Assembly: GCA_944392785.1 (NCBI GenBank)
Contig: CALXXW010000024.1
Location: 73,744-109,070 of the forward strand
DNA: 35,327 nucleotides
Origin: an uncultured Alphaproteobacteria bacterium
GTDB taxonomy: Bacteria > Pseudomonadota > Alphaproteobacteria > CAAHEQ01 > UBA3637
Direction of reading: 5' to 3'
Shown here: positions 1 through 35,327 of the stretch, piece by piece
Numbering within the stretch: the first letter of the stretch is position 1
Layout: each line of letters begins with the position of its first letter
Notes under the pieces: model-generated
What the model was told of the DNA's origin: nothing
Databases searched by the model: none
The model's input: the letters and a program-made list of their open reading frames with translations, nothing else
Program-made: the position numbers and the translations under genes

Positions 1-194
1 TAAAGGCGACGGTCAAACCGGCTCTCAAGAAAGTTGCTCCGGTCAAGGCCGCTGCAAAGGCTATGGCAAAATCCGTTTTGAACAGCACAAAAGTAGTTGC
101 AAAACCGGCTGCTAAAACGGCCTCTGTCAAAGTAGCGGCTAAAAAAGCAAAACCGGCCGTATCTAATGAACCGTTTTACGGTATCCGCAAATAA
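1..194 (+). CDS. Lys/Ala-rich C-terminal tail of an unidentified protein (3' end only)
   Basis: Only the last 63 codons are present; the frame is open from base 3 to the TAA at 192-194. The visible part is almost entirely Lys, Ala, Val and Pro in KPAAK/VKVAAKKAK-like steps and ends in NEPFYGIRK. Such tails occur on histone H1-like nucleoid proteins and on phasins; both are possible and the fold-bearing part lies outside the window, so no function is assigned. The tail is low complexity and probably disordered and basic. A hairpin terminator follows 21 bases after the stop, so this is the end of its transcript. Confidence 0.7.
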   Translation, partial: KATVKPALKKVAPVKAAAKAMAKSVLNSTKVVAKPAAKTASVKVAAKKAKPAVSNEPFYGIRK

Positions 195-13656: not shown

Positions 13657-14814
13657 TTAGGGGATGTTTGACCATATTAATCCCTGCTTTTCGGGATCAT
13701 AGGACAACGCCATTTTTCCCATACCAAAAGCCAACACCCGCTGACCGAAAACATGATAGCGCCATCCGCTTAGACAGGGCACATGTTGATTTCCTTGCGC
13801 CAAAAGGCTCAATTCATCCGTAGAAGCAATAATTCTGGGAGCAACACCGATTTCTGCGGCGGAAACATCCAGCAACAGCCGATAAACCTCCCATAGACTA
13901 CGCTGATACGGCAATAACACTTGCTTTTTTTCCGTCAGGTTTTGAGGATATTGTTCGACAGGAACGGCTTGTGCCGTTTTCAAGATGTGTAATAATTCCA
14001 CTGCCAACGCGCTTTTTCCAAATCCTTTTGGAAAATGACGCAACTTGTCGAAATCGGCCGGCGTATCTACCGGGGCAACAGCCAGCTCAAGCAAAGCCTC
14101 ATCCTTTAAGATATGTTTACGCGGTTTATTTTTTGTTTTAGCCATCTGTTCGCGCCATGCGGCCAAACGTGACAGGACATAAAGCTGCTTCTCTTTTTTT
14201 AAAGGTGCCTTTATTTTACGCCAAGCTGTTTCGTTATCTACCTCATATGTTTTGGGATCTGTCAGAACGGCCATTTCCTCAATTAACCAATCACGCCGGC
14301 CATTATTATCCAAACGGTTTTGCAAATTCAGATACACATCTCGCAAATATGTCACATCATGTAAAGCATACGTCTCCTGCTCCGAGCTTAAAGGACGTCG
14401 TGACCAATCTGTATAACGCTGTCCTTTATCCAAATGAATTCCCAAACAATCATACACCAACTGCTGATAGCCCACCATGTCGGTATATCCACAGACCATA
14501 GCCGCCACCTGGGTATCAAACAATGGTGTCGGTATCTGGTGAGTCAGCATATAGAAAATCTCAATATCCTGCCGCGCCGCATGAAAAACCTTCATGACAT
14601 GCGGATTTTGGAATAATTGAAAGAGCGGGCTTAAATCCAAGTCCCGACTCAGTGCATCAACGCACCAAGCCTCTTGCGGACTGGCGATTTGAATTAAACA
14701 CAATTCGGGATAATATGTTTTCTCACGTATAAATTCCGTATCGACGGTCATAAAAGGATGTGTCGCAAAACGCTGACAAACCTCTTTTAACAAATCTGTT
14801 GTTTGAATCATCAT
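13657..14814 (-). CDS. rnd: Ribonuclease D
   Basis: A 3'-5' exoribonuclease that trims tRNA precursors and other small RNAs. The 385-residue product has a complete DEDDy active site: D25-x-E27 in VDTEF, D83 in ARQDIEIF, and Y149-x3-D153 in YALHD. An HRDC-like domain follows at about residues 205-290 (AWREQMAKTKNKPRKHILKDE and following). Length is near E. coli RNase D (375). The start at 14814 has no ribosome binding site; a promoter ends 9 bases upstream, suggesting a leaderless message. It is divergent from a CCA-adding-type enzyme, another tRNA 3'-end enzyme. Confidence 0.93.
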   Translation of the reverse strand: MMIQTTDLLKEVCQRFATHPFMTVDTEFIREKTYYPELCLIQIASPQEAWCVDALSRDLDLSPLFQLFQNPHVMKVFHAARQDIEIFYMLTHQIPTPLFDTQVAAMVCGYTDMVGYQQLVYDCLGIHLDKGQRYTDWSRRPLSSEQETYALHDVTYLRDVYLNLQNRLDNNGRRDWLIEEMAVLTDPKTYEVDNETAWRKIKAPLKKEKQLYVLSRLAAWREQMAKTKNKPRKHILKDEALLELAVAPVDTPADFDKLRHFPKGFGKSALAVELLHILKTAQAVPVEQYPQNLTEKKQVLLPYQRSLWEVYRLLLDVSAAEIGVAPRIIASTDELSLLAQGNQHVPCLSGWRYHVFGQRVLAFGMGKMALSYDPEKQGLIWSNIP

Positions 14815-14823
14815 GGTGACGAC

Positions 14824-14852
14824 ATTTTACACCTTTTTTCATTGCATGACAA
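14824..14852 (-). promoter_or_regulatory. Promoter of rnd (leaderless)
   Basis: Minus-strand TTGTCA (14852-14847) and TAAAAT (14829-14824), 17-base spacer. The expected start near 14817 is only two or three bases before the ATG at 14814. Confidence 0.7.
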
Positions 14853-14870
14853 GCCCCGCTTTGATATAAT
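14842..14870 (+). promoter_or_regulatory. Promoter of the cca-type gene (leaderless)
   Basis: TTGCAT (14842-14847), 17-base spacer, TATAAT (14865-14870), with an extended -10 TG at 14862-14863. The expected start coincides with the ATG at 14878. Its -35 box shares a base with the -35 box of the divergent rnd promoter. Confidence 0.8.
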
Positions 14871-14877
14871 AACACGT

Positions 14878-15708
14878 ATGACAATCCGGTGGCATCCTCA
14901 TCTTGAAAAAATATATCTTCTTTTAAACGGGCACATGCGTCTGGTAGGGGGCTGTGTCCGAGATATCCTGTTAGGGAAAACGCCGACAGACGTGGATATT
15001 GCCACTCCTTTGCACCCCGAGCAGGTGTGTGACAGACTGATTGCCGGAGGAATTCGTGTGATTCCAACCGGCATGGCCTTTGGGACGGTGACGGCTCAAT
15101 TTCCCGAGACCAAATATGAAATTACTTCACTACGTCGCGATATTGAAACAGACGGCCGACACCCGCGTATTGCCTATACCGATTCCTATCAAGAAGATGC
15201 TTCACGCCGTGATTTTACAATTAATGCCTTGTATCAAGACAGAGAGGGTATCTTATACGATTATCATCAGGGATTACAAGATTTAGCCCAACGACACATC
15301 CGCTTTATCGGAGATCCCGAGCAGCGTATCCATGAGGATTATCTGCGCATTTTACGTTATTTTCGTTTTTGGTCTTCTATTGAAAACAGGCAGCCGGACA
15401 ATCAGGTATTAGATGCTATCTACCGCCAGAAAGAGGGGCTGGGACGTCTGTCTATCGAAAGACGATGTCAAGAGCTCTTTAAGTTATTGGGAACACCTCA
15501 AGCGGAAAAAGCTCTTCACATCATGGAACATCTGGAATTACTTCCCTTGATTGCACCTCATTTGTCTTTGCCTCATTTTAAAGGCCAGACAGCCGTAGAG
15601 CGTTTTGCTTCTATGACGGTTGACCAAGATTTAAGTTTCTATAAACTGTCCCGTCGCTTGACCAGACAAATTCAAGAAGAATGGCAAAAATTTAAAAAGG
15701 AAACATAA
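14878..15708 (+). CDS. CCA-adding-type tRNA nucleotidyltransferase (short form)
   Basis: Member of the class II polymerase-beta-like family that adds or repairs the CCA end of tRNA; poly(A) polymerases share the fold. Head motifs are LVGGCVRDILLG with the metal-binding DVDIAT, followed by RRDFTINALY and the neck GDPEQRIHEDYLRILRYFRF. From the ATG at 14878 the product is 276 residues, clearly shorter than the 380-420 I expect for alphaproteobacterial members; the C-terminal body/tail seems reduced and there is no open continuation after 15708. The frame is open upstream to 14803, but a strong promoter inside that segment makes 14878 the start. No ribosome binding site precedes it, consistent with a leaderless message. 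Confidence 0.88.
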   Translation: MTIRWHPHLEKIYLLLNGHMRLVGGCVRDILLGKTPTDVDIATPLHPEQVCDRLIAGGIRVIPTGMAFGTVTAQFPETKYEITSLRRDIETDGRHPRIAYTDSYQEDASRRDFTINALYQDREGILYDYHQGLQDLAQRHIRFIGDPEQRIHEDYLRILRYFRFWSSIENRQPDNQVLDAIYRQKEGLGRLSIERRCQELFKLLGTPQAEKALHIMEHLELLPLIAPHLSLPHFKGQTAVERFASMTVDQDLSFYKLSRRLTRQIQEEWQKFKKET

Positions 15709-15725
15709 CCTTTGTCATTTTTTTC

Positions 15726-15754
15726 TTGTTTTTTTGGAGATTTCGGCATACATT
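15726..15754 (+). promoter_or_regulatory. Possible promoter of the prepilin gene
   Basis: TTGTTT (15726-15731) and TACATT (15749-15754), 17-base spacer. Both boxes are weak. Predicted start near 15761, ahead of a strong AAAGGAG at 15773-15779. Confidence 0.4.
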
Positions 15755-15783
15755 GACTTAAAGAAAAATAGGAAAGGAGATGT

Positions 15784-16239
15784 ATGATGTCGATTTCACC
15801 GAACGAATCCGGACGCAGTTTGATTGAAATGTTGGCCGTTATTTCTATTATCAGTATTATTACCGTCGGCGCCGTTAATGGTCTGGGATATGCCAATCGC
15901 TTGTTTCGAGCGACAGAAATTCAAAATGATGTCGAAGCATTAGCAAGCGGTGTTATCGACCTTTATTCATGGCAACGTGATTACAACAATCTGAACATGA
16001 CCACCATTTGTGATAATGATATTCTTATGAGAGACTGCGTTAATAATGCTTTCCCGGCCCCCGGAGCCGATACCATAATCGTTCAAAAGACGGGGGGTGG
16101 TGATAGCTTTGAAATTGTTGTCACGGGACTTCCCCGTCTCACGTGCAATGCTCTAAAGGACAAGAAATGGATTTATGTCCAGGCACCGACCGAAGCCTGC
16201 AACGGGGATCAAAACACGTTAAGTTTTGCGGCGAATTAG
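15784..16239 (+). CDS. Type IVb-like prepilin (PilS-like), stand-alone
   Basis: The 151-residue product has a short leader ending in Gly10, then SLIE with the conserved Glu at +5, then about 22 hydrophobic residues: a class III (prepilin peptidase) signal. The +1 residue is Arg instead of the usual Phe or Met. The globular part has four Cys (76, 85, 121, 139). GLPRLTC (115-121), Trp129 and C139-x4-N-x-L-x-F resemble the C-terminal lobe of PilS-type IVb pilins. GGAG at 15776-15779 fits either ATG at 15784 or 15787. No secretion ATPase, platform protein or prepilin peptidase is nearby, so it is an orphan pilin or minor pilin. The same C-terminal pattern occurs in the cysteine-repeat protein at the right edge. 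Confidence 0.8.
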   Translation: MMSISPNESGRSLIEMLAVISIISIITVGAVNGLGYANRLFRATEIQNDVEALASGVIDLYSWQRDYNNLNMTTICDNDILMRDCVNNAFPAPGADTIIVQKTGGGDSFEIVVTGLPRLTCNALKDKKWIYVQAPTEACNGDQNTLSFAAN

Positions 16240-19452: not shown

Positions 19453-19486
19453 AAAAAAAAGAGCATTCCAAAACGAATGCTCTTTT
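19453..19486 (-). terminator. Rho-independent terminator of the 1013-residue gene
   Basis: A perfect 12-bp stem (AAAAGAGCATTC with GAATGCTCTTTT) and 6-base loop. On the minus strand the stem is followed by a T-run of eight (counting the last stem bases). It lies 20 bases beyond the stop at 19506. Confidence 0.95.
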
Positions 19487-19505: not shown

Positions 19506-22500
19506 TTACATCGATTTGACACGATGCGCGATCCGTCCCAAAAGACCCCGTTGAGAGTCTTGATAAGCCGTTTCAAGGCGAGCACGTTGCTGAGACCTGG
19601 TTAAAGTCCCCATTTCTTGGGCCAATCGGTTATATACTTCGACCATAATAGGAGGCGGTTCTTTTGATAAATCAATATGCCCTCTACCATCTTTCAAAAA
19701 GATTTCGGCCAACGCATAAACCGTCACGCCATACACACTTTGCTGCGGATTATCGTGCAGCATTTTACCGGCAGCGATACGAGCCTCTACCACCTTGACG
19801 TTCAGTTCAGACTCTGTCCAACGACGACCATCCAAGGCGATATCTGCTCCCAAATTCGGACGCATCATATTACCCTTCATGGCAACCAACACATCAAATT
19901 TTTCCTGCTCATTCAAGTTATGGGTATTTTCACGCCAAGCATGTCCGGCTTGTTTGATAAACTCCAGGCAATCGCGCGCATCCTCTTTTGTCAAAGCGAA
20001 ACTACGACCCAAGAGCGAGCAAGAAACATTTGTTCCACTCACCCAGCGCGGTGTTGTCCTCAAATCACGCGCCAACTGCGTCAACATTCCCTGTGTCGCG
20101 GACAGAACCGCCTGATCAACAGATCTGACATCGCGACCATACAGTCTCATGGCACGCCGCGCCAATTCACTGCGAAGCGCATCCGCACGATTACCCAAGC
20201 GATTATACGCTCCGTAATTATGATTAAAGCGATCGGCACGGAAAGCATCAAAATGCCCCTCCAAAACAATGGGATTAATTTGAGGGAAACGAGCGGGAGG
20301 CTCTAGAACCTGAGGCACAGCCACTGTCTGAGAGCGCGTATCCCCTGCCGTTTCAGTCACTTTCGGCTTAACAACTGTCACTGTTTCGTCCGGCAAGGAA
20401 ACTTCTTCGGTAAAGTAGGGCTCTGGCATCTCCAAAGCATCCACCACAACATGCGGTTTTGATTCGGGCGTCTTGTCTTTAGCCAGATAACTCCATAATC
20501 CCCAGCCAAGGCCTAATGTACTGAGCCCCAACAGACCAACCATAGCCAAAAATGCCCGCAAACTTCCCTCTTTTCCATGGGTCGGCACTTTGTCCGGGCG
20601 AGACGTCTGAACAAATATCTCATCCGCCTCAAACGGTGTATTTTCGGTTGTATAACGTCGTGGCAACGGCTTAGTCACCTGCACGGGCAAATAGTCCTGG
20701 ATCCAATTTTCTTCGGCCGGCACCGCCTTGCCCGAAGCTGTTTCAACAACAGGCGATACAACGGACGGACGCGGATCCTTCACTCCTTGTAAATATAATT
20801 CATCCTGGAACAAACCGTCTGTTCTGGGTTCTTTGACCTTATAAACCCGCACCGGTGTAGAAGGTGTCGGCACAGCCGGCTCCGTCGAAGCGGCCTGAGT
20901 GACAACCGGTTTTGTTTGGACAACCGGAACAACCTCCGGTCTTTGTACAGCAACCTCTGTTTTCAAAGTCTGTTCTTGTACTCGGACGATAGCTCCCTTA
21001 CGGTGCTCGGCAATAGTTGCTTTAGCCATATCTCCCATCGGCGTAAACCACAACGGAGAGAACTCATTATACGCCGGCATATAATCTGCCGGAAGCCCCA
21101 TTAAGCGATTGTAATATGTAATACACCGAGAATCATTGTAGGCAATACGTGGCGTCAAGCCTTTAATACCCGTCATCTCCGTGCAGAAAGCGCCAAACGT
21201 TTCTTCCCACTCTTTTTTAAAGACTTCATACGGGTAGACACGTCCACCGACATGACCGGTTTTGACATAACTCATAAACATGGTATGCAGTTCCTCTCCA
21301 TAATCGCGCCATGTTTGAGAATCAGCCGTTAAAGACAAATTCCGCAGAACCGATTTTTTTCCCTGCACAGGTAAATTGTTCACAACCGGCGGCCGAGCCG
21401 TCATATTCGACAACACCGACGCTTCCTTTTTACTTTCAGGCAAGGCATGAAGCGTCTTAGTCGGCGGCAACGCCTGTGCCACCTTTGTTTCCGGTAGAGC
21501 GTGAGGCGTTTTAGTTGGCGGTAACGCCTGTGCTACTTTTGTCTCCGGTAAGGCATACAACGTCTTGGTCGGAGACAAGGAACGAACGGCGACCTCTTTC
21601 GCGTCTGCCAATGTCGCCATACTGTCCGAGATAATACGGCCGATTGATAGATCCCAATGATATGTGAACTCTGGCAACGTTAAATCATATTCTGCCGAAC
21701 GTCCCAACAAGTATTTCATAATCTGACGCACTTGCGGATTCTGATAGGCGTCTTCCGGCGTTATGTGTTGATTTTTCAAATACTGTGCGGCATGTTCTCC
21801 AAAGCGTAAGCGCAACATACGACGAATATCGACCTCGCTGATATCCGGGGAAGTCAATCGACGAATCATGTTAACAATGGTAGCATCACGCGACATTTTA
21901 GACGCTTCGGCGGCAGACAAAGCCTTGGCCAATTCGGCCTGCTCACGTTCCAAACGCTCATTCATCTGTTCGGTCAAGAAAGTATTTTCGACCAAATCCC
22001 CCAGAGACATATCCCATCCTTCATAAAAACGTTTACGTCCCAAAGGAGCTTTCGGTGATAAATGAAGTATTTTCTTCATCAAATTAACCGCGAACATTTG
22101 TTTTTCATACGCCCGCTTTTTTGAATCACCCAACCAACCCTTATTATAGTAATCGGCAAAAGACATATTCCACAGCTTTTCAAAAGCAGCTGCATCTGTA
22201 AGGGTATGTCCGACAACCGCCTCTAAGGCCGAACGCAGGTCTTTATTTTCCCATGCCTCCAAGGCTTTATCGTGAAGATATTGTTGACGCATTTTAGCAC
22301 GTCGAGCGGCATGCGCTTTCAGCGCCGCTTTCCGACGTCTTTCTCGAATACGCTCTGCTTTCATCCTGTCTGCCTCAGACGGATTCTGCAACACCTGTTT
22401 ATCGGTCTGACCTTTCTGCAGGGCCTTCTCCTTTGTTTGAGAAGACTCAGCCTGTTCCGGCATATGAATCCGCAAGGTTTTTTTCAGTGTTTTTTTGACC

Positions 22501-22547
22501 TCAACCGTTTCTTCGACAACGACTTCTGCTTTTGGTTTTTCAGCCAT
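19506..22547 (-). CDS. Unrecognised 1013-residue single-pass membrane protein with F-x3-W-x4-G repeats
   Basis: I do not recognise this protein. Residues 1-100 are very basic and probably coiled (for example 60-86). Five segments share F-x3-W-x4-G/A with fixed spacing: F122/W126/A131, F174/W178/G183, F294/W298/G303, F443/W447/G452 and F496/W500/G505. Residues 323-373 hold an 18-residue tandem repeat rich in Pro, Thr and Lys; 530-660 is Pro/Val-rich and probably disordered. One membrane helix lies at about 665-689, and 690-1013 is a mostly helical, probably periplasmic part with Cys843 and Cys860. The basic N-terminus suggests N-in/C-out topology. The start has AAGGAG six bases upstream and a consensus promoter; a strong terminator follows, so it is its own transcription unit. 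A structural or envelope-spanning role is only a guess. Confidence 0.9.
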   Translation of the reverse strand: MAEKPKAEVVVEETVEVKKTLKKTLRIHMPEQAESSQTKEKALQKGQTDKQVLQNPSEADRMKAERIRERRRKAALKAHAARRAKMRQQYLHDKALEAWENKDLRSALEAVVGHTLTDAAAFEKLWNMSFADYYNKGWLGDSKKRAYEKQMFAVNLMKKILHLSPKAPLGRKRFYEGWDMSLGDLVENTFLTEQMNERLEREQAELAKALSAAEASKMSRDATIVNMIRRLTSPDISEVDIRRMLRLRFGEHAAQYLKNQHITPEDAYQNPQVRQIMKYLLGRSAEYDLTLPEFTYHWDLSIGRIISDSMATLADAKEVAVRSLSPTKTLYALPETKVAQALPPTKTPHALPETKVAQALPPTKTLHALPESKKEASVLSNMTARPPVVNNLPVQGKKSVLRNLSLTADSQTWRDYGEELHTMFMSYVKTGHVGGRVYPYEVFKKEWEETFGAFCTEMTGIKGLTPRIAYNDSRCITYYNRLMGLPADYMPAYNEFSPLWFTPMGDMAKATIAEHRKGAIVRVQEQTLKTEVAVQRPEVVPVVQTKPVVTQAASTEPAVPTPSTPVRVYKVKEPRTDGLFQDELYLQGVKDPRPSVVSPVVETASGKAVPAEENWIQDYLPVQVTKPLPRRYTTENTPFEADEIFVQTSRPDKVPTHGKEGSLRAFLAMVGLLGLSTLGLGWGLWSYLAKDKTPESKPHVVVDALEMPEPYFTEEVSLPDETVTVVKPKVTETAGDTRSQTVAVPQVLEPPARFPQINPIVLEGHFDAFRADRFNHNYGAYNRLGNRADALRSELARRAMRLYGRDVRSVDQAVLSATQGMLTQLARDLRTTPRWVSGTNVSCSLLGRSFALTKEDARDCLEFIKQAGHAWRENTHNLNEQEKFDVLVAMKGNMMRPNLGADIALDGRRWTESELNVKVVEARIAAGKMLHDNPQQSVYGVTVYALAEIFLKDGRGHIDLSKEPPPIMVEVYNRLAQEMGTLTRSQQRARLETAYQDSQRGLLGRIAHRVKSM
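21432..21581 (-). repeat. 54-base tandem repeat encoding ALPxTK units
   Basis: Within the 1013-residue gene, residues 332-349 and 350-367 are near-identical 18-residue units built from ALPETKVAQ and ALPPTKT. A partial unit stands before (SPTKTLY) and after (ALPESK). At DNA level this is a 54-base direct repeat with about two full and two partial copies. Confidence 0.85.
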
Positions 22548-22587
22548 ATTTTTCTCCTTACATATACTTTTCCTATGTTATTCTTTA

Positions 22588-22615
22588 ATTATAGCATATA
22601 TAAAGAATTTGTCAA
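22588..22615 (-). promoter_or_regulatory. Consensus promoter of the 1013-residue gene
   Basis: Minus-strand TTGACA (22615-22610), 16-base spacer, TATAAT (22593-22588); both boxes are exact consensus. Predicted start near 22581, leader about 33 bases. This is the best-matching promoter I found in the window, so the gene is likely strongly expressed. Confidence 0.9.
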
Positions 22616-22624
22616 AATATTTTC

Positions 22625-24379
22625 TTAAACCGTCTGTATTTCCTTGGTTTTCGCATAAAACGAGCGTCGCCGCTGTGGATCAAGATCGACGCCCACTGTT
22701 GTGATGACTCCATTTTCTATAGTGCGAACAACCAACTCTATGGCATCAACGGACAAACGATCGCCCAGTTCCATATCGCCAAAAGCCGCCGCCATCACAT
22801 CTGCGATTGTACGATCCCTGACCCCTTGACTGACCTGCACACCATACATGCGCTCCAATTCGGCAAAAGTCGTTGAGGCAGCCAACGGAAAGTCTCCAAA
22901 AGCGTCTAACACTTCGGCAGCCTCCCCACCACCGAACAATCGATCCAACAAGCCTTGACGACGTGTCGAGGGAGAAACAACATAAATGCGATCTCCGACC
23001 ATCAGTTGCTTCACCGAAGAATAGGTCAAATCATTTCGCACCACCAATGTCGGACGAGCCCAACGAGGAATCTTTTCTCCCAGAACGGCCGGTGTTTTTT
23101 CACCTAACTCATACATAATCAAGGAACTATCCGTTAAACCGGGTAAGTCTATTTCCATTTTTACCGGCTCTTGGTAAAGACGCGGCACGACCACCCCGCA
23201 AAGGCGTGCTATAACGGGGATAAAGAAGCCCTGAATCAACAAGCTTAACAGAACCATTACAAAAATGATATTAAAAAAGAACTCTCCCTCGGGCAATTCG
23301 TAAATGATTGGAAGCAAAGCCAACAAAACCGATGTTGCACCTCGCAAGCCGACAAAGGAGATGAAATTTTTTTCATGGCGTGTATAGGACGAGAAAAAGC
23401 TTAAAATTCCCCAAATCATCATGGGACGAGCAAAAAACATCAGCAAAATTGCCAAAACAAGTGCAGGCTTCCAAACGGATATCAGTCCCTCCCAAGTCAC
23501 AAATAATCCCAAGGAAACAAACATAACAATTTGACACAACCACGTGATGGTTTGTTGAAATTTTGAAATTTGTGTATAGGCCTGTATTTTGTTATTACCA
23601 ACGATAACACCGGCGATATACACCGCCAAAAAACCACTCCCTCCCAACGCATCCACACAAGCAAATCCCAGCAACGCCAAGCCCAGCACAAAAATAGGAT
23701 ATAACGCCGGTTCCAATTTAATTTGATTAACCAACCAAATAATACCTCGCGCCAACACAAGGCCGCCCAGTGCACCGATTACCAATTGAGCGCCGAACAT
23801 CGGCGCCAAAGCCAAATAGTCTGTTGTTTGAATAATCTCGGGCCGACTGAGGATAAGCATACAGGAGATGGTTAAGAAAATTGCCATCGGGTCATTGGCT
23901 CCCGATTCGACCTCCAACGTTGCTTTTACTTTTTCACGCAGGTACAATCCTTTTGAACGCAACAGAAAAAAAACGGCGGCCGAATCCGTTGAACTAATCA
24001 TGGCGACCAGTAAAAAAGCCGAGACCCAACCGACATGCAGCGTATAGCGTGCCATCGGCGTCATCAAAACGGCTGTCAGGACTACACCTAACGTTGCCAG
24101 CAAAATAGCCGGCAAAGAAGCTTGCTTATACATTTTCATAGAGGTATGGAATCCACTGTCAAATAGGATTAAGGCCAACGCTATAGCCCCTAATCCGAAC
24201 ATCAAGCGCGGATGACGAATTTCCGACAGCACATCAAAACTGCTAAATCCAACGACCACCCCTAAGCACAAAAAAATCAAGATAAGCGGAATACCGACAC
24301 GCGTGGAAACCAGACTTGTCAAAATACTAATCACCAAGACCAACGACATCATAAGAATGGGTAGATCAATAAAATCCAA
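22625..24379 (-). CDS. CvrA/NhaP2-type cation:proton antiporter
   Basis: A 584-residue CPA1 antiporter with about twelve membrane segments in residues 1-390 and a cytoplasmic C-terminal half resembling TrkA-C/CorC-type domains. Conserved transport residues lie in ISSTDSAAVFFLLRSKG and LEVESGANDPMA. Length and domain order match E. coli CvrA (YcgO) and Vibrio NhaP2, which exchange K+ (and Na+) for H+, so potassium/proton exchange is the likely role. Translation probably starts at TTG (24379-24377), with AAGGAG eight bases upstream inside the end of the LOG gene; an ATG nine codons later is the alternative. The gap to the LOG gene is three bases. Confidence 0.9.
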   Translation of the reverse strand: MDFIDLPILMMSLVLVISILTSLVSTRVGIPLILIFLCLGVVVGFSSFDVLSEIRHPRLMFGLGAIALALILFDSGFHTSMKMYKQASLPAILLATLGVVLTAVLMTPMARYTLHVGWVSAFLLVAMISSTDSAAVFFLLRSKGLYLREKVKATLEVESGANDPMAIFLTISCMLILSRPEIIQTTDYLALAPMFGAQLVIGALGGLVLARGIIWLVNQIKLEPALYPIFVLGLALLGFACVDALGGSGFLAVYIAGVIVGNNKIQAYTQISKFQQTITWLCQIVMFVSLGLFVTWEGLISVWKPALVLAILLMFFARPMMIWGILSFFSSYTRHEKNFISFVGLRGATSVLLALLPIIYELPEGEFFFNIIFVMVLLSLLIQGFFIPVIARLCGVVVPRLYQEPVKMEIDLPGLTDSSLIMYELGEKTPAVLGEKIPRWARPTLVVRNDLTYSSVKQLMVGDRIYVVSPSTRRQGLLDRLFGGGEAAEVLDAFGDFPLAASTTFAELERMYGVQVSQGVRDRTIADVMAAAFGDMELGDRLSVDAIELVVRTIENGVITTVGVDLDPQRRRSFYAKTKEIQTV

Positions 24380-24382
24380 AAC

Positions 24383-25456
24383 TCAGTCTCCTTGATACTG
24401 TTTTTTTAATTGACTTAATTTATCGCTGATAACGGCCGTATCCCGACCGGATTTGGCCAAACGTTCATATAGGCGCGTGATTTCTTTATTTAAATAGGCA
24501 GTTTCGATTTCCTTTGACAACTGTTGCTGTGCAGCTTGTTTTCCCTGAGACAAGATGAAATCTTTTTCATCCAGAATAGCCGTGATACTTTCATCGGTTC
24601 GATAGCGTTTCTGATCAATAACATAGGGTAAATCATAAATAATTTTTTCCACGGCACGCATTGCGTTGGTCCGTGTCCCTTTTTTAGGATAATACCTGGC
24701 AATCATTTCAAAGGCTATGCTTGCCTCAAAGCTATCATCAACGACAATAAACGGCATAGCATCGGCGAAGCCTTTTAAATGCATTTCTTTCAGATACTCC
24801 AACAAATGATGGAAAAAACCTTCCACATTAAACAAGACGAAGGGCTTAAACGTTAAAAAACCGTCCTGCATCGCCACACAGTCATACGCCAATTCATCCA
24901 ATGTTCCCACTCCTCCCGGCGCAAAGATGACGAAATCTGCGGCCAACAGCTGCTTTTTACGCTCCTCAAGTGTATGAGCCACAATCACTTCGGAAAAAGC
25001 ATCCAACAGTTGATTTTTCTGATAGAGAGCAAAATACTCCTTTGTCGTCACGGCCTGAATCGGTTTTGTCGCCTCTGTTTGATTTTTGCTCTTTTGAGTC
25101 CAGGCGTCCAAAACTCCCTCTGCCACAGCCCCCATAATACCCCGAGAAGACAAGCCGAAGTTCAACCGATAATTCTGGCATCCAATGGCTTGTCCCAACA
25201 GATACGCCTCTTTTGCATAACCTTTATCATGTCCTGAACGAGAGCCTCCTGCCACAAAAACGCGCGTTGTTCCCTTTTTATTACGGGAAATCAGCTCAGA
25301 CGCAACTTGTGTTGAGGACACTTTGAGGTGATTTTTCCGACTTTCTCTGACGGATAGCCCCGATCCTCTTTTTAACGTAATATCAACAGTCGACGTCAAA
25401 GACGATGCCGTCCGCGAGACCTGTTTTGCCGTTCTTGTTGTTTTCTTTGTTTTCAT
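24383..25456 (-). CDS. LOG-family protein with basic N-terminal extension
   Basis: The core (about residues 65-260) has the lysine decarboxylase-like/LOG Rossmann fold: VAGGSRSG, an ERKKQLLAADFVI segment and the nucleotide-binding APGGVGTLDELAYD. LOG proteins release cytokinin-like bases from nucleoside 5'-monophosphates; many bacterial members are general nucleotide phosphoribohydrolases, so the substrate is open. At 357 residues it is far longer than typical LOGs (about 190). The extra parts are a basic Lys/Thr/Ser-rich N-terminus of about 60 residues and a charged helical C-terminus of about 80. The ATG at 25456 has no clear ribosome binding site, and a promoter lies only 8 bases away. It is first of a two-gene unit with the antiporter. 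Confidence 0.82.
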   Translation of the reverse strand: MKTKKTTRTAKQVSRTASSLTSTVDITLKRGSGLSVRESRKNHLKVSSTQVASELISRNKKGTTRVFVAGGSRSGHDKGYAKEAYLLGQAIGCQNYRLNFGLSSRGIMGAVAEGVLDAWTQKSKNQTEATKPIQAVTTKEYFALYQKNQLLDAFSEVIVAHTLEERKKQLLAADFVIFAPGGVGTLDELAYDCVAMQDGFLTFKPFVLFNVEGFFHHLLEYLKEMHLKGFADAMPFIVVDDSFEASIAFEMIARYYPKKGTRTNAMRAVEKIIYDLPYVIDQKRYRTDESITAILDEKDFILSQGKQAAQQQLSKEIETAYLNKEITRLYERLAKSGRDTAVISDKLSQLKKQYQGD

Positions 25457-29936: not shown

Positions 29937-30431
29937 CTAATACTCCTTCACTGTCCTTGTATACTTTGCCAGTATTTCCTGTTGGCGTTTATGACGTAAA
30001 GCCTCACGCTGTTGGTATAAAACCTCCGATTTCAAGCGGCGCGCTTCTTTTTCACGTTCCATGGCTTCTTTGACCTTTAAAAGTTTGATAACTTCAGGTA
30101 AACGCATTTCCGCCAACTGCATGAATGATCGCTTGTCTGCCGGACGAGACACACGGACATCCGAACGGCTTAGCAATACCCGACAAACTTCTAGATTTTG
30201 CTTAATAATAGCTGTCTCAAGAGCATCTTCATAAGAGCAGTTCCTATTGACAATGCCCTCGGGGCATTGCTTTAAATAGTCTATAGCATCATGGGTCTTT
30301 CCGTTGATAATCAACCTTATTAATAGGGGCTCCCGACGTACGGAGGCGTCTCCCATATCCAAGCGTTTTTGTTTTTTTGATGACGGAGATATGTTATCTT
30401 GTTTTTCTGGATTCTCTAAATTATTTGACAT
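29937..30431 (-). CDS. Small ankyrin-like, charged cytoplasmic protein
   Basis: The ORF is open from 30458, but AAAGGA five bases before the ATG at 30431 makes that the likely start, giving 164 residues. The N-terminal 40 residues are polar and basic. The middle part holds one recognisable ankyrin-type helix pair (ALETAIIKQNLEVCRVLLSRS, with VRVS after it) preceded by a weaker one (LIRLIINGKTHDAIDYLKQC). The C-terminal 45 residues form a charged helix rich in Arg, Lys, Glu and Gln, possibly a coiled coil. No signal peptide or membrane segment is present. Function is unknown; ankyrin repeats usually bind other proteins. It has its own promoter. Confidence 0.7.
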   Translation of the reverse strand: MSNNLENPEKQDNISPSSKKQKRLDMGDASVRREPLLIRLIINGKTHDAIDYLKQCPEGIVNRNCSYEDALETAIIKQNLEVCRVLLSRSDVRVSRPADKRSFMQLAEMRLPEVIKLLKVKEAMEREKEARRLKSEVLYQQREALRHKRQQEILAKYTRTVKEY

Positions 30432-30462
30432 GCTTTTCCTTTCTGTTTTACCTGTCATTTTA

Positions 30463-34110: not shown

Positions 34111-35327
34111 TTAGGAGCATTTCTTTGTCCCGGCATTCCATGTCCCACGACACGATTCACACTTCTCTTGGGTGTTCAAGCCAACCAAACTTGTCGGACA
34201 TTTATAACAATAGCCTCCGCTCATATACCGTGGGGTGCTACTCTTATCACACTTGGCACATTCGACTTCTGTCGCTGGAACGCCAACTGAAGCGCTGCAG
34301 CTGAGGCAAGCGCCATAGGTACTCATAAATCGCGGTGTGCTACTGTCATCACACTCGGCACATTCGGCCGCGGTCGCTGAATAGCCCGTTGACTCGCTGC
34401 AGCCGCGGCAATTGCCATTGGTATCTATAAATCCCTCAGGACAATATCCTGGTAGAATACAAATCCCATTTCTCATCTCGCGCGGTGTGCTACTGCTATC
34501 ACACTTGTCACATTCGGCCGCGGTCGCTGAAGCGCCAGATGATCTGCTGCAGCTGAAGCAAAAGCCACCGGAAGACTGGAACTGATTCGCTTCACAGTTA
34601 ATTAACCCACAATAGTCACCAAACATTTTGCGAGGAGTGCTACTATCATCACACTGGGCACATTCGGCCTTGGTCGCTGGAATGCCAGCTGAAGCGCTGC
34701 AGCCGAAGCAATAGCCATCGGTCCCCATAAATCGTGGTGTGCTACTGGCACCACACTTGGCACATTCGGCCGCGGTCGCTAGCCAGCCAGATGGATCGCT
34801 GCAGCTGGTGCAAGAGCCATTGGTACTCCAAAATCGTGGTGTGCTACTCTTATCACACTTGGCACACCCGGCCGCGGTCGCTGACCAGAAACCTGAATCG
34901 CTGCAACGGAGGCACCAGCCATTGATATCCATAAATCGTGGTGCACGACTACCATCACATTTAGAGCACTCTGCAGCATCAACTAGGTCCAAAACATTTG
35001 CATCGCAATCATAACAGGTGCCTCTTTTATCACAGAATTGTGTCATCGAGCAGTCATCTCCGGACCAACCGGCCTCACACGCGCATGACGTGCCGTCCCA
35101 GGTGCCATGGCCCCAACAATGCTCTTCATTCGGGTCCGGCGTTTCTTCCCCCTCTCCGCCGGCCACAGCACCGCTCTTTAAATCATTGGCAAAGGCAAAT
35201 AACATCTCGTTATTACCTTCACCACAAACCGTATTGTCATCAACGGCAACACCATCCAACAAAATAGCCGCCGGCATTTGCCAGTTGACGTCTATGACCT
35301 TATCACACACCCCTTGCGGTATATCCG
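34111..35327 (-). CDS. Pilin-like protein with EGF-like module and cysteine-repeat array (5' end missing)
   Basis: The frame is open to the window edge, so the N-terminus is missing; about 405 residues are visible with 44 Cys. Numbering from the GTG at 35310, the first part (to about residue 48) holds P-x2-V-C-x7-W and C29-x4-N-x-M-x-F, matching in spacing the C-terminal lobe of the prepilin at 15784. A Gly/Glu/Pro linker follows, then an EGF-like module (residues 65-87, with WGHGTWDGTSCAC and GWSGDDC). From Cys115 to Cys387 come seven repeats beginning C-x2-C and containing SSTPR, C-x2-C and ATAAE; unit lengths are 34, 34, 34, 50, 50, 34 and 33. The two longer units each carry an extra Cys pair. 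I infer an exported, disulfide-stabilised surface or pilus-associated protein. Confidence 0.85.
   Translation of the reverse strand, partial: DIPQGVCDKVIDVNWQMPAAILLDGVAVDDNTVCGEGNNEMLFAFANDLKSGAVAGGEGEETPDPNEEHCWGHGTWDGTSCACEAGWSGDDCSMTQFCDKRGTCYDCDANVLDLVDAAECSKCDGSRAPRFMDINGWCLRCSDSGFWSATAAGCAKCDKSSTPRFWSTNGSCTSCSDPSGWLATAAECAKCGASSTPRFMGTDGYCFGCSASAGIPATKAECAQCDDSSTPRKMFGDYCGLINCEANQFQSSGGFCFSCSRSSGASATAAECDKCDSSSTPREMRNGICILPGYCPEGFIDTNGNCRGCSESTGYSATAAECAECDDSSTPRFMSTYGACLSCSASVGVPATEVECAKCDKSSTPRYMSGGYCYKCPTSLVGLNTQEKCESCRGTWNAGTKKCS
34150..34968 (-). repeat. Tandem repeats of about 102 bases (two of 150) coding the Cys units
   Basis: Seven direct repeats follow one another in the cysteine-repeat gene. 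The best-kept part encodes ATAAECAKCDxSSTPRF and recurs with few base changes (for example plus-strand GGTGTGCTACT and CACATTCGGCC). Such arrays can change copy number by recombination or slippage. Confidence 0.85.

Follow-up and report, generated by a model that had tools for sequence, protein, structure and literature searches.

A slot-conserved, sequence-labile protein family in rumen and gut Alphaproteobacteria and its long form, a 1013-residue apparent orphan

PodJ, the 974-aa polar scaffold of Caulobacter, combines cytoplasmic coiled coils, a disordered region, a transmembrane (TM) helix, and periplasmic TPR and peptidoglycan-binding domains (PMC8980812). The protein described here, encoded in a 35,327-nucleotide stretch of DNA from an uncultured alphaproteobacterium (the window), belongs to the same class of bacteria and resembles PodJ in its size and, by prediction, in its cytoplasmic N-terminus, its helical and disordered cytoplasmic part, its single TM helix and its periplasmic part; one of its relatives, at locus L034, also has a coiled-coil-like stretch, recognized by eye, in the cytoplasmic part, where PodJ is coiled-coil as well (PMC8980812). 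It differs from PodJ in carrying F-x3-W units, compared with the six coiled coils of PodJ, and in having no TPR/Sel1 or peptidoglycan-binding domain found by Pfam. The window protein has low-complexity linkers and a TM helix, and a long coiled coil is seen, by eye, in L034 alone. Because the periplasmic domains of PodJ were not detected, we did not file the protein as a PodJ, and because Pfam returned no TPR or peptidoglycan-binding match, no envelope-binding module was identified.

Envelope-spanning proteins of the TolA/TonB type have an N-in single TM helix, a Pro-rich periplasmic linker and a C-terminal domain. The window protein shares this arrangement, but it has a large cytoplasmic region and a C-terminal domain that is mostly helical by prediction, and neither the TolA nor the TonB C-terminal domain was matched by Pfam. 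Its repeated short-helix units of ~50 residues are reminiscent of TPR, Sel1, HEAT, ankyrin and PPR repeats; however, they are built on F-x3-W, are irregularly spaced and have linkers between them, and the TPR, Sel1, HEAT and ankyrin profiles gave no match in the protein.

The gene, its control signals and the genes upstream of it are as follows.
19506..22547, minus strand: open reading frame of 1013 aa, with ATG at 22547 and TAA at 19508-19506
22554..22559, minus strand: ribosome-binding site AAGGAG, 6 nt 5' of the ATG, read in the sequence
22588..22615, minus strand: promoter TTGACA-N16-TATAAT with an extended -10 TG, kept at this site in relatives
19453..19485, minus strand: terminator-like hairpin AAAAGAGCATTC-GTTTTG-GAATGCTCTTTT followed by a T run, read directly in the sequence
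22625..24379, minus strand: CPA1-type cation/H+ antiporter, a syntenic anchor (PF00999, E 7e-42)
24383..25456, minus strand: LOG/lysine-decarboxylase-like protein, a syntenic anchor (PF03641, E 3e-15)

The coordinates given by an earlier sequence-only reading were correct, with the coding strand read here as minus (22547 to 19506). That reading had also described an exact-consensus promoter, and we indeed found TTGACA-16-TATAAT with TG before the -10 element at 22615..22588, the sole site in the whole window that matches at 12/12 positions. A terminator-like hairpin lies 3' of the gene, which is therefore probably transcribed as a unit by itself, a judgment made on the letters themselves; the automatic terminator scan did not list hairpin 19453-19485. 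As to the proposed abundance of the protein, ribosomal and other genes of this genome are hardly distinguishable by codon usage, which is uninformative on this point.

The gene lies directly downstream of the LOG-antiporter pair. Among the 43 genomes of the family to which the window belongs, 30 carry the antiporter, and the corresponding site (the slot) was read in 20 of them; the LOG-antiporter pair was intact at all 20 relative loci. A diverged protein with one main TM helix stands next to the pair in genera g3 (990, 798, 1026 and 813 aa), g13 (388 and 373 aa) and g7 (604 aa in two genomes), and other genes occupy the slot in g4, g6 and g9. The slot promoter is likewise kept, matching TTGACA-16-TATAAT at 12/12 positions in three g3 loci (L035, L036 and L037), as in the window, and at 10/12 in five further loci (L034, L042, L044, L047 and L048), so that the claim of a strong promoter extends to the relatives. 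Synteny extends past the slot: in three of the four g3 genomes the next genes are a pilin-like one, adjoining the slot gene, and the counterparts of window genes 14803 and 13657, a set that lies at 13657-16239 in the window; by their sequences, the latter two would be CCA-adding-type and RNase-D-type enzymes. The small pilin/pseudopilin-like protein of the window (15784-16239, plus strand) has an N-methylation motif and matches PF07963 at E 5e-4, just under the cut-off. In two genomes of genus g4, 540- and 551-aa single-TM slot proteins with TTGACA-type promoters were observed (L045, 2792-4411, and L046, 8196-9848, both minus strand), which are possibly further, still more diverged family members. 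The nearest loci belong to uncultured Alphaproteobacteria, and for several of these the sample was rumen, abomasum, cecum or rectum.

Sequence searches agreed with the earlier statement that no family could be named: Pfam, NCBIfam, PHROGs, PADLOC and PDB sequences gave no match, and with Pfam at E up to 10 the sole match was a sub-threshold DUF3408. Pattern-based searches for the protein among collected genomes and viruses found nothing, and single-sequence searches of 57 relatives and then of the 43 family genomes rose above noise in its own genome alone, the window's genus (g1) being sampled by one genome. One weak match, L033, was taken as chance; by inspection it is a RodZ-like HTH-TM protein.

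Profile-based tests revealed similarity between genera. When a C-domain HMM was built without the window protein and run against 736 sequences, including 500 shuffles of the window protein, the window protein ranked first (E 2e-5; next best, 0.05). Leave-one-genus-out HMMs of the C domain similarly placed the held-out g7 (E 3e-4) and g13 (E 1e-5) proteins first, and for g3 the similarity was weak, with L034 at rank 2 (E 0.19). In profile comparisons, the TM helix plus C domain of the window protein scored 35.6 against g3, a value reached by 0 of 150 shuffles (null 15.8 +/- 3.1, maximum 29.4), and the C domain alone scored 23.7 (null 13.8 +/- 2.4). A blind HMM of the five repeat units of the window protein, searched against 2,233 sequences, ranked L036 first (E 7e-4), with L034 as the second real open reading frame and one shuffle scoring above it; in the reverse test, a profile of g3 units matched the window protein at E 0.14, within the shuffle range. 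We estimate a probability of about 0.85 that the slot gene belongs to a family defined by its locus. The window gene is the long form of this slot-conserved, sequence-labile family and is an apparent, not a true, orphan: a 1013-residue member of a chromosomal slot family in which promoter and position have been kept and the protein sequence nearly erased.

By the C-domain profile, the family is present in 9 of the 43 genomes and in 4 of the 13 genera of one rumen/gut Alphaproteobacteria family. Across 385 genomes of the class, the same profile gave just three matches outside this family, with E values of 0.003-0.006, about chance level, which supports a restriction to one lineage. The cytoplasmic part ranges from ~57 residues (g13) to ~700 (g1 and g3), and the TM helix and C-terminal domain are constant family-wide. 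The repeat region is absent altogether in the g7 and g13 members, and membership of the family therefore does not depend on the repeats.

The window protein is organized into the following parts.
22128..22271, minus strand: repeat unit 1 (F122/W126), residues 93-140, by motif and gapless comparison
21963..22115, minus strand: repeat unit 2 (F174/W178), residues 145-195, by motif, gapless comparison and unit profile
21612..21752, minus strand: repeat unit 3 (F294/W298), residues 266-312, by motif, gapless comparison and unit profile
21309..21575, minus strand: low-complexity linker, residues 325-413, with an 18-residue repeat LPETKVAQALPPTKTxxA
21162..21308, minus strand: repeat unit 4 (F443/W447), residues 414-462, by motif and gapless comparison, the weakest unit
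21006..21152, minus strand: repeat unit 5 (F496/W500), residues 466-514, by motif and gapless comparison, like the last L036 units
20562..20990, minus strand: Pro/Thr/Val-rich cytoplasmic linker, residues 520-662, 13% Pro
20496..20552, minus strand: single TM helix, residues 666-684, hydropathy 1.73, its GLSTL also present in L036
20253..20480, minus strand: Pro/Val/Glu-rich periplasmic linker, residues 690-765, 14% Pro, acidic
19509..20252, minus strand: C-terminal helical domain, residues 766-1013, predicted periplasmic, by the leave-own-out HMM (rank 1) and the AF2 model

All five F-x3-W-x4-[GA] motifs are at the residues first reported for them, 122, 174, 294, 443 and 496. Shuffled versions of the protein contained F-x3-W 0.36 times on average, reaching five in 1 of 20,000 shuffles; for the full F-x3-W-x4-[GA] motif the mean was 0.054, and five were reached in 0 of 20,000. 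The alignment of units 2 and 3 held in gapless 40-residue comparisons, where they formed the best pair (z 6.3), followed by pairs 2-5 and 3-5 (both 4.7), 1-2 (4.1), 1-4 (3.1) and 3-4 (3.0); units 2 and 4 had no significant similarity. An alignment of units 3 and 4 upstream of the Phe had also been put forward; the segment LMGLPADY used in it lies ahead of Phe 496 and is therefore part of unit 5 instead of unit 4. Profile A3 was built without unit 4 and did not recover it, making unit 4 the weakest, and the significant matches of this profile in the 43 family genomes were limited to its own building units.

Recognizable units in g3 include F198-LAD-W-DETI and F565-TTY-W-YKPL in L034, and L169-RRD-W-NESL, F277-KED-W-NTPI, F627-CHY-W-KKPF and AYND..F-HKN-Y-DKTMGD in L036. 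The expected conservation of Phe, Trp and Gly is accordingly found in part: Trp is kept in five of the six units (Tyr in the other) and Phe in five of six, but Gly is not kept. The predicted N-terminal structure is poor overall (pLDDT 49), with unit 1 modelled as short helices at a block pLDDT of mostly 75-82. The repeat is thus supported as real and diverged, and as helical in those stretches where the model can be used.

Within the gene, a tandem repeat with a 54-bp period at 21448-21550 encodes the 18-residue linker repeat, and its length possibly varies between strains. A second repetitive gene was observed at 34111-35310 of the window (minus strand), where 102-bp tandem repeats give a 399-aa Cys-rich protein with ~34-residue repeats (CxxC...SSTPRxM...GxCxxCS); its sequence has the look of a Cys-repeat protein of the extracellular kind.

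In 8 of 9 members, basic residues weigh more heavily before the TM helix than after it; this bias is weak in the window protein and reversed in L036. The g7 members, L035 and L037 finish in another hydrophobic stretch, followed by a basic tail. The basic N side and these hydrophobic, basic-tailed endings both point to an N-terminus inside the membrane and a C domain beyond it, so that charge bias, hydropathy and the model together support the predicted layout of one TM helix, N-in, with a helical C-terminal domain. The AF2 model of the C domain is mostly helical (pLDDT 69, pTM 0.64), its best part lying roughly between residues 120 and 260 of the domain. Foldseek with this model found no convincing fold, the best E values being 0.6 (PDB) and 0.5 (BFVD viral models), and VIA-align reached a Z of up to 5.7 with 90 residues aligned at an rmsd of 3.7, in low-confidence stretches.

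From this architecture we infer a function, tentatively and at somewhat under even odds: the slot protein may be a cytoplasm-to-envelope tether or scaffold, PodJ-like in its working. With the N-terminus in the cytoplasm, the F-x3-W units would form small modules of helices and bind a partner there, the Pro-rich linkers would give reach, the single TM helix would anchor the protein in the inner membrane, and the helical periplasmic domain would dock onto an envelope component. If this is true, the family would provide two handles on envelope organization in small gut Alphaproteobacteria, a repeat of simple design and a scaffold that diverges rapidly. Against the tether or scaffold reading, divergence as fast as that described next could equally result from weak constraint or from an arms race.

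The rate of change bears on a different, and unlikely, explanation, that of an envelope protein changing to escape recognition under diversifying pressure from phage, host or competitor. Proteins flanking the slot share 58-64% identity between the window and g3; the C domains, at ~22-25%, are at alignment-noise level. In the g13 pair, the neighbour proteins are 98.5-99% identical and the slot protein 76%, with a dN/dS of 0.30 for the slot gene vs 0.03-0.04 for the neighbours, as such pressure would have it. However, dN/dS remains below 1, the changes in this pair fall mostly in the N-terminal cytoplasmic and TM part and not in the periplasmic core, the slot protein showed no signal for secretion or for the outer membrane, and in the g7 pair the divergence of the slot protein is near that of its neighbours. 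The dS of the slot gene is also raised in the g13 pair (0.52 vs 0.17), which suggests mosaic alleles. Judged from these comparisons, turnover is fast and partly mosaic, but under purifying selection. A dN/dS below 1 in the relatives further indicates that the family is coding.

Less likely still is that the protein works with, or regulates, the neighbouring cation/H+ antiporter (and the LOG protein), its repeats sensing or binding some factor in the cytoplasm and its TM helix modulating transport. In four genera the slot gene immediately follows the antiporter in the same direction, but a promoter and a terminator-like hairpin of its own flank it, it is found in 9 of the 43 genomes compared with 30 for the antiporter, other genes hold the slot in g4, g6 and g9, and the antiporter is well conserved, at 53-61% identity to the window's copy, whereas the slot protein is near noise level.

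A bolder extension of the tether or scaffold reading, and a long shot, is that both the C domain and the F-x3-W units have folds not described before, in a lineage-specific polarity/envelope hub that replaces PopZ/PodJ in these small-genome Alphaproteobacteria. PF10691, which we take to be the PopZ family, was found in 34 of the 43 family genomes, with a strong signal in most genera, was not detected in the window's genome, and was weak or absent in g3 and weak in part of g4 too. The window's genome and g3 are the lineages with the long form, a weak hint of PopZ replacement; the loss of signal in g1 and g3 could simply reflect diverged copies.

That the protein is nearly species-specific, with no conserved role and repeats from a recent expansion, would suit its long low-complexity linkers and the failure of single-sequence searches to find a homologue in any collection, but this very improbable reading is largely refuted by the similarity across genera, in which site, promoter, TM helix and C domain are kept and F/W units are common to the window protein and g3, and by purifying selection in the relatives. 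Elsewhere in the window, the minus-strand gene at 29937-30458 encodes a small ankyrin-like protein (Ank_2, E 1e-6).
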